Positions 133 to 17,288 of a stretch of DNA of 64,000 nt are shown here, one piece after another. How positions within the stretch are numbered: the stretch's first letter is position 1; every line of letters begins with the position of its first letter. Origin of the DNA: Lachnospiraceae bacterium (lineage in GTDB: Bacteria; Bacillota; Clostridia; Lachnospirales; Lachnospiraceae). Under the pieces are notes generated by a model. It did not search any database. It saw nothing but the letters and a program-made list of their open reading frames with translations, and was not told where the DNA came from. The DNA lies in assembly GCA_028689655.1 (NCBI GenBank), contig JAQVCT010000010.1:1-64000 (forward strand), given 5' to 3'. The translations under genes were made by a program, and so were the position numbers.

Positions 133-367
133 TTTGTTCCGATTACGACAGTAATCGAGAACACGAAGTCACACTAGTGACGTAGGTTAACTTGTTCCGA
201 TTATGAAATAATCGAGAACACGGAGTCACGCTAGTGACGTAGGTTAACTTGTTCCGATTATGAAATAATCGAGAACACGGAGTCACGCTAGTGACGTAGG
301 TTAACTTGTTCCGATTATGAAATAATCGAGAACACGGAGTCACGCTAGTGACGTAGGTTAATGTCAT
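133..367 (+). repeat. Four tandem 57-bp units, each with two hairpins, between rplU and prp
   Basis: Units begin with TTGTTCCGATTA at about 134, 192, 249 and 306, so the first is 58 bp and the others 57 bp. Each holds two inverted repeats. Hairpin one is CGATTAT-GAA-ATAATCG in units 2-4 and CGATTAC-GACA-GTAATCG in unit 1, so one base pair changes on both arms. Hairpin two is GTCAC-GCTA-GTGAC (loop ACTA in unit 1). The array directly follows the rplU stop and ends about 20 bases before prp, so it would be transcribed within the ribosomal-protein operon. The reverse strand is open through the array only because 57 is a multiple of three. Confidence 0.93.
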
Positions 368-385
368 ATATGACGCAGGTATGTT

Positions 386-4625: not shown

Positions 4626-4663
4626 GTTTTTAACAGTATTTATTTTTCTTATTCTTTTTTATG

Positions 4664-4795
4664 TTCTTTATCTTATTATTTCTTTACTTACTCTTTATTT
4701 TGTCTGTTTTTATCCTGTTATTTCTTTACTTACTTTTTATTCTATCTGTTCTTATCCTGTTACTTCTTTATTTAATCTTAATTTCTTCCTTCATT
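4664..4795. repeat. Imperfect 42-bp tandem repeat, T-rich
   Basis: The core TCTTTACTTA/TCTTTATTTA recurs at 4681, 4723 and 4765, exactly 42 bp apart, with TTATCCTG and TCTGTT elements repeated alongside. It fills the convergent gap between rsfS and lexA (4482-4821), which holds no convincing gene. The strand is strongly pyrimidine-rich. On the lexA strand it reads as an A/G-rich 3' untranslated stretch. Confidence 0.75.
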
Positions 4796-12844: not shown

Positions 12845-12957
12845 AGCCTCGAAAAACCTCGATTTTCGAGCATGCGTGACACAGATTACTTGGTAATCTG
12901 GTCATATAAGACCTTAGTCGTTTCACTCCTGTGTGACACAGGTTGCTTTGCAACCTG
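12845..12957 (-). repeat. Two 57-bp hairpin repeats upstream of the AI-2E gene
   Basis: The motif GTGACACAG begins at 12876 and 12933, exactly 57 bp apart. Each copy carries a perfect 8-bp stem with a 3-base loop: CAGATTAC-TTG-GTAATCTG and CAGGTTGC-TTT-GCAACCTG. The stems differ at several positions, with both arms changed together. The copies are flanked by GGTCATATA / GGCCATATT. A further small stem CTCGA-TTT-TCGAG lies at about 12858-12870. The period and two-part layout resemble the array at 133-367. A frame on the minus strand through the repeat (12813-13019) is not considered a gene. Confidence 0.82.
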
Positions 12958-13037
12958 GCCATATTATACCATACTTGAAATAAATATTGTATATAAAAAA
13001 TAAATGAGCAGCAGTGCAATATAACAGCTTTATAAAA

Positions 13038-16124: not shown

Positions 16125-16365
16125 ATCCTGCCCTTCTTTTATGATATTTTCTTATTTTATATTTTCCTATTTTATATTTTCTTGTTTTATATATTTCTTA
16201 TATTACATATTTCTTATTTTATATATATTTCTTATTTTATATATTTTTTATTTTATATATTTTTTATTTCACATCTTCATATTTTATTTTTCCACTTTTT
16301 ACATTTCATTTTTTTATTCGTTATTTTTTCTTACTTCTAATTTTTTCTTATTCTTTTTTATATTA
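16125..16365. repeat. Low-complexity TTTTATATTTTC-type repeats between sdaAB and sdaAA
   Basis: About 240 bases consist of imperfect 12-16-bp repeats of TTCTTATTTTATAT-like words (C+G is very low). Apparent plus-strand frames of 75-87 codons, made only of F, I, L, S and Y, come from this bias and have no ribosome site. On the transcribed minus strand it forms an A-rich, unstructured spacer between the two serine dehydratase subunits. Confidence 0.85.
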
Positions 16366-16369
16366 ATTT

Positions 16370-17050
16370 TTAATCCTGTCGTATCTCTTTGTCCTCCGTA
16401 TTGATGTACGTGACCTTGATGATTCCCTCCAGGTGTTCCAGCCAGTGAATGGCTTCCATGGGGATACTCTGATCCGTCTCCACCACCATCACGGCATAGC
16501 CACCCCGCTTATCCCGATACAATTGCATCGTGGCAATATTGACAGACTTATGGCTGAGCATAGAGGTAACTTCTGCGACATGACCCGGCTGGTCAATATT
16601 ATGGACGATGAGCGTTGGCTTTTCCGAGGTAAAATTAACATCGATTCCATCCAGTTTATTGATCATGATACGCCCTCCGCCTATGGAGGAAGCCTGTATC
16701 TCGATCTCTCTGCCGCTTTCCCCTTTAAGACACAGTAATGCTGTGTTGGGATGTGCATCCTTGATGGTGGTATTCTCAAAAGAAAAAGAAAGATGTTCTT
16801 TTTTGGCTATTTCAAAACTCTTTGGAATCCTGATATCATCCGGATATAAACCCAGTAAGCCCGCAATGATCGCCCGATCCGTACCATGCCCGATCCCGGT
16901 GGATGCAAAGGAACCATGGAGATAAATATGTGCCTCCACGGGTCTGTCCTTCAATAATTCCGCGGCTACAAGGCCTATCTTCACTGCACCGGCCGTATGG
17001 GAACTGCTGGGTCCTACCATAACGGGTCCTAATATGTCAAATATATTCAT
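16370..17050 (-). CDS. sdaAB: L-serine dehydratase, beta subunit
   Basis: The 226-residue regulatory subunit starts MNIFDILGPVMVGPSSSHTAG, the family signature, with PSSSHTAGAVKIG near residues 13-25. A C-terminal ACT domain follows (VHNIDQPGHVAEVTSMLSHKSVNIATMQLYR). An in-frame ATG at 17083 lacks a ribosome site, while ATG 17050 is preceded by GGAAGG with about 12 bases between, so the shorter form is chosen. It is first in the sdaAB-sdaAA unit. Hexamer repeats lie just upstream. Confidence 0.94.
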   Translation of the reverse strand: MNIFDILGPVMVGPSSSHTAGAVKIGLVAAELLKDRPVEAHIYLHGSFASTGIGHGTDRAIIAGLLGLYPDDIRIPKSFEIAKKEHLSFSFENTTIKDAHPNTALLCLKGESGREIEIQASSIGGGRIMINKLDGIDVNFTSEKPTLIVHNIDQPGHVAEVTSMLSHKSVNIATMQLYRDKRGGYAVMVVETDQSIPMEAIHWLEHLEGIIKVTYINTEDKEIRQD

Positions 17051-17071
17051 ATGCTCGCTGATCCTTCCTAT

Positions 17072-17160
17072 TTGTATTTTCATTTTTATTTCTATTTGTA
17101 TTTCTATTTCTATTTTTATTTCTATTTGTAATTTTATTTCTATTTTTATTTCTATTTTAA
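17072..17160. repeat. Hexamer-type simple repeat upstream of sdaAB
   Basis: The stretch is made of ATTTCT, ATTTGT and ATTTTT words in near-tandem order, about 14 units. It lies between the presumed sdaAB promoter and its ribosome site (starting about 20 bases before the ATG). The remainder of the 17051-17365 gap holds a terminator and AT-rich DNA. Length change by slippage could alter leader length. Confidence 0.75.
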
Positions 17161-17288
17161 ATTTATTTTAAATTATATTGATTTCTAGTCGTAACCTTAT
17201 GCACTTATTGCACCAGCACCCTCCCATTTGATACTGTTTGATTCTCATACATACAATATATATGTTACCTTTTAACGAAAAAAAAGTA

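Follow-up and report, generated by a model that had tools for sequence, protein, structure and literature searches.

A dispersed, REP-like two-hairpin element lies between rplU and prp in a Lachnospiraceae bacterium and adjoins -10 boxes elsewhere in its genome

The tandem array that separates rplU from prp in this Lachnospiraceae bacterium in our view likely goes back to a single insertion event. The element concerned is non-coding, dispersed and REP/REPIN-like, comprises two hairpins in about 56 bp, and has multiplied in the source species. The element is probably non-autonomous, with an unusual strand-specific targeting that would act via single-stranded DNA; the family appears to have spread recently through the genome of this gut bacterium. 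Mobile repeats are mostly found downstream of genes, where harm is least; the two-hairpin family is positioned to the exact base at the -10 boxes of dozens of promoters, and in a congener such boxes exist without it. If this targeting is real, it would couple insertion chemistry to transcription initiation, and a single genome would offer a natural collection in which dozens of housekeeping genes carry hairpins in place of their leaders.

The window, that is, the whole 64,000-nucleotide stretch of DNA analysed, opens on the + strand with the 3' end of rplU (L21; 1-132, stop codon at 130-132, the remainder on contig C43). The array (133-361), prp, coding for the protease that trims L27 (386-715), and the reading frame of rpmA (L27; 719-1003) follow on the same strand. 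Prp was recognized from homologues in relatives, with 31-61% identity to named records, mostly from Lachnospiraceae, and 60-69% to congeners. The initial annotation had described four head-to-tail units of 57/58 bp with two hairpins each, and both TRF (127-361, period 57, 4.1 copies, 96% match) and folding confirmed them. Unit 1 (133-190, 58 bp; DNA fold z -5.14) consists of hairpin A (TGTTCCGATTAC/GTAATCGaGAACA), the linker CACGAA, hairpin B (GTCAC/GTGAC) and the tail GTAGGTTAA. Units 2 (191-247), 3 (248-304) and 4 (305-361), all of 57 bp, are identical in sequence, and the two-sided change reported for hairpin A was found as described, CGATTAC/GTAATCG in unit 1 being CGATTAT/ATAATCG in units 2-4. 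All four units match the covariance model presented below (3.1e-22 for unit 1 and 1.6e-22 for unit 2). The final piece ahead of prp, GTCATATATGACGCAGG at 363-379 (+ strand), has the appearance of a worn hairpin B and is a probable remnant of a further unit. The insertion point GGTTAA (127-132, + strand), whose TAA is the rplU stop codon, is the same as the GGTTAA tail of every unit in this array. Contig C43 stops at window base 127 and contig C53 starts at base 1; this 127-bp overlap puts the array at an assembly junction, so that the unit number there may be off. Two diverged units of the family lie on the - strand at 12853-12963 (covariance-model matches of 24.6 and 25.2 bits). The window also has other A/T-rich tandem repeats, at 4655-4784, 16133-16371 and 17068-17179.

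Each unit is predicted to form its two hairpins both as RNA and as single-stranded DNA. The 265-nt array region folded as RNA at -89.1 kcal/mol (z -6.15), and single units folded as DNA gave z values of about -4 to -5. The stem of hairpin A, 11-12 bp long, is interrupted on its 3' arm by a single-base bulge; that of hairpin B has 5 bp. We examined co-variation in a sequence-only alignment of 66 distinct units, one of them a copy from the congener G003. Pairing was present in 89.3% of cells and two-sided changes in 14 of the 17 pairs, values matched by none of 500 shuffles; sliding the partner by 1-3 columns reduced pairing to only 25-40%. The earlier claim that the paired change reflects a selected structure thus stands as far as strong co-variation is concerned, but an RNA role does not follow from it. 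Compensatory changes have been reported in the hairpins of REPINs, which are mobile, without these being regulatory RNAs (PMC3116915), so co-variation alone is no proof of such a role; more generally, co-variation in bacterial repeats need not imply a regulatory RNA. An Rfam scan of the window returned tRNA only, the best match in the array region (E = 1.1) being far under its gathering score. At another locus (L086:2592-2764), a weak, sub-threshold match to the Clostridiales-1 RNA adjoins an array, outside the unit.

The initial annotation had placed the function of the repeats in the L21/Prp/L27 operon, and had suggested a covariance-model search of the genome and a comparison of the spacer in relatives. 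Both went against an operon-specific role. A model built from nine units (R1) gave 132 matches at E<0.01 in the 3.41-Mb source genome, G000. These form 67 arrays, each holding 1-7 units spaced at 55-59 bp, with edges set from the model matches and neighbouring genes called by a simple ORF finder. Nearly all units fall outside long ORFs, and they lie ahead of unrelated genes. The layout is fixed: hairpin A, whose stem is variable but paired, a short linker, hairpin B, then GACGTTAA or GTAGGTTAA. Class 1 units have the linker CAGGA and GACG after hairpin B (CGTC on the opposite strand); class 2 units, among them those between rplU and prp, have CACGNA and GTAGG. The tags GTAGG and GACG deviate in other units and are not located at a unit end. 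At least two units, in head-to-tail order, are carried by 35 of the 67 arrays. Mean unit identity is 0.970 inside an array and 0.771 across arrays, and 45 of 92 same-array pairs are fully identical; arrays therefore grow by local duplication, whereas the family is dispersed and older. The unit shows no long terminal inverted repeat, and no consistent target-site duplication was found at the arrays. At the left edge, TATAA or TTAA is similar to the tail of the unit, with a match that is inconsistent across arrays. Several arrays (at L070, L086, L078, L087, L094 and L098) are followed without a break by another repeated module, a long hairpin with GAGCAACGCGAACGAGAAAATCGCAGATTTTCGAGTCTCTGCTGG. 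N runs adjoin arrays at C66:8172 (L083) and beside C42:31825 (L067); the arrays break the assembly there, and unit numbers at these two places are uncertain.

The boundaries of the arrays are not placed at random with respect to promoters. A perfect TATAAT occupies the left edge in 34 of the 67 arrays, its final T being base 1 of the unit, and the edge fits TATAAT at five or more of six positions in 45; the background of TATAAT among AAT sites of these loci is 2.4% (P = 1.4e-45). These 45 often read TRTGNTATAA/T (here and below, the slash in an edge sequence marks the junction), and in 22 of the 67 the left edge is TGNTATAAT. The score for a TTGACA (-35) sequence has a single peak, 2.51 at a 17-bp spacer, as against about 1.2-2.0 at other spacings. 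Beyond these -10 and -35 signals the flanks have nothing in common, and this single peak makes them look like real, unrelated sigma-A promoters. About a third of arrays lack a clear -10 box and lie at stop codons or elsewhere: many of the remaining arrays start at the upstream gene's stop codon or a few bases from it, and in several the unit's own TGA now acts as that stop. The rplU-prp array is of this stop-codon type (GGTTAA, with the rplU stop), and its absence from our automatic stop-codon tally is due solely to rplU extending beyond the contig end. Class 1 units are found at -10 boxes in 33 of 38 cases; the placement of class 2 is mixed. Orientation is likewise strict: where the flanking genes are co-directional, the unit shares their direction in 42 cases and opposes it in 1-2, and -10 boxes are found forward at the left edge in 45 arrays and in reverse at the right edge in 3.

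Comparison with relatives suggests that the sites preceded the units. In four congeners the rplU-prp spacer is about 20-30 bp long and has no unit; TTAA stands at the position of the insertion point, followed by a short plain spacer. For 16 further arrays we aligned the orthologous regions of G003, the nearest congener, with the array omitted. A genome-wide model search found no unit at any of these 16 regions, the empty sites being judged against a genome whose intergenic DNA aligns only partly. At gyrB/parE (TGTGCTATAC/TTCAG) and deoD (ATGGTATAA/TTCT), the G003 sequence has a -10 box exactly at the junction. TATAA/T is also kept at glgA, dapB and contig C63, where the alignment is less clean and the evidence supportive, and the grpE-dnaK site reads CAATAAGTA/TAG. 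The rpsH-rplF spacer (L099, L191) has a hairpin in both species with differing sequences; since G003 has its own hairpin there, this is not a clean empty case. The presence of -10 boxes in G003 without the element indicates that the promoters came first and that units inserted without destroying them. An element bringing its own promoter was considered and rejected on the grounds of the unrelated flanks, the fixed 17-bp spacing to the -35 sequence and the -10 boxes that G003 keeps without it.

Since the dispersed copies mostly land exactly at promoter edges, they are probably mobile DNA and not a switch made for this operon. Movement would involve a folded single-stranded hairpin inserted strand-specifically, as in IS200/IS605 and REP systems, into DNA exposed as a single strand, of which the promoter bubble may be one source; the enzyme may be supplied in trans or have since been lost. 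Tandem copies would then arise by local duplication after insertion. Between rplU and prp, the element may have inserted just after the rplU stop codon and then grown to four units; if L21/Prp/L27 output is affected at all, this would be incidental to the co-transcription of the hairpins. More tentatively, we suggest that the mobile hairpin targets the promoter bubble itself, in one orientation, between the A at -8 and the T at -7. The element's first base would restore the T, so that the -10 box stays intact; the hairpin would replace the transcript start, and the element would thereby ride on active promoters. If transcription starts about 7 bases past the -10 box, hairpin A's upper stem would form the beginning of many mRNAs and could protect the message; a 5'-leader RNA role acquired after insertion is possible.

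A different reading, which we regard as unlikely, is that the units constitute a functional 5'-leader RNA family, whose hairpins at or near the transcript 5' end stabilise or regulate mRNAs and whose copies are retained for this reason, their spread being attributed to recombination or an old mobile step. The position between -10 box and start codon, the stems that remain paired and the co-orientation with the downstream gene all agree with it, and the last of these counts against a mobile element, since strong co-orientation is also expected from selection for leader function. However, no common theme links the downstream genes (dnaK, spoVG, pth, xseA, pgi, deoD, dapB, glgA, rplF, gyrB/parE, LacI and others), and the arrays without a clear -10 box do not fit a leader. 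The sites are also empty in the congener, at odds with the orthologous conservation across species of a selected structural RNA. Stem composition points both ways: G-T pairs outnumber A-C (10 versus 2), but with about 1,150 stem cells they make up less than 1%, which by general expectation is low for a selected RNA helix. This low count is in keeping with stems maintained chiefly through copying at the DNA level, which may have an RNA role as well. The initial annotation had itself taken a recent slippage product present in one strain only to speak against a selected RNA, and local duplication together with empty congener spacers points to such a recent product, confined to this lineage.

That the array serves the rplU-prp-rpmA operon as a dedicated RNA stability or processing element, setting the L21/Prp/L27 ratio, appears highly improbable: it is structured and probably co-transcribed, but the unit occurs at about 66 other places, is missing from the spacer of four congeners and has no conserved site. 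Replication slippage or an assembly artefact in one genome as the sole origin is scarcely credible, in spite of the identity of units 2-4, the contig junction at base 127 and the N gaps by arrays on C66 and C42, because slippage accounts for copy number but not for a dispersed family or its boundaries, and other arrays lie deep inside long contigs with unique flanks.

The preferred reading, a mobile element, invites comparison with known repeats. REP and REPIN families are GTAG- and CGTC-tagged palindromes with RAYT/TnpA-REP partners. The two-hairpin unit resembles them in being short, palindromic, non-coding, high-copy and intergenic, and they too are often species-specific, with compensatory hairpin changes, stems that are bulged in one group, tandem clusters in some cases, and a terminus from which flanking ORFs take their stop codons (PMC3733652, PMC3116915, PMC8266576). 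Most REPs are located downstream of genes, and head-to-tail dimers are rare among them (PMC3733652). Our unit differs in having two hairpins within about 56 bp, in its head-to-tail order, in lying upstream of genes at -10 boxes and in that no Y1 gene was detected in the genome. As a short intergenic palindromic repeat (132 matches, about 67 arrays) it behaves like a REP-type repeat, but neither a RAYT/Y1 gene flanked by repeats nor a head-to-head or tail-to-tail dimer was found, and we therefore do not file it as a REP. The -10-box targeting and the head-to-tail arrays set it apart from described REPs. Non-autonomous elements derived from IS200/IS605 are strand-specific, have bulged hairpins and insert 3' of a short motif with no obvious target duplication. 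The likeness to them is one of mechanism only, and no TnpA was detected for the two-hairpin unit. Mycobacterial MIRU/VNTR loci are dispersed, tandem, intergenic units of 50-100 bp that touch stop codons; compared by description only, they have to our knowledge no promoter-box specificity. BOX, RUP and SPRITE repeats of Streptococcus pneumoniae share a low-G+C Gram-positive host and are structured, modular and co-transcribed, with a repeated internal module (PMC3049150). BOX repeats are over-represented between convergent genes, and placement at -10 boxes is not described for them in the parts of that account available to us, the comparison being by description only (PMC3049150).

The G000 assembly (94% complete) has no match to a Y1 transposase (PF01797) or to a reverse transcriptase (PF00078, RVT_1), and for the latter reason a retro-element origin was rejected. 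Y1 genes of three relatives (G002, G329 and G336) adjoin no unit found by a further model, R3. Those at L254 (G336:C34) and L255 (G329:C23) are flanked by palindromes of 28-33 nt in a REPtron-like arrangement, unrelated to the rplU-prp units; having their own, different palindromes, they are not the partner of the two-hairpin unit. A phage or plasmid origin was set aside after blastn gave no match and two unit patterns were without a match in viral contigs. A protein operator also seems improbable, as both arms vary too freely.

Over 60 relatives, R1 gave a single match, in G003, and thus none in the three other congeners; a further search added one weak G003 match. The clearest G003 copy (L131:2490-2547) has a segment of a group II intron about 135 bases away. 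A search of the literature for such repeats in Lachnospiraceae found none. Searching 299 genomes of the family with model R2, under strict filters and with few candidates scored per genome, gave weak matches in two other genera. One of these two genera has its own two-hairpin family of like layout, TATGTC-hairpin-ACACGGCG-hairpin-TTGGTT, present in four species at 6-12 copies and often immediately following a tRNA gene or a stop codon. The two-hairpin layout is thus wider than the source species, and the burst and the -10 preference are seen only there. At the loci of the other-genus family (L205, L207, L216, L217 and L222-L251), hairpin lengths change.
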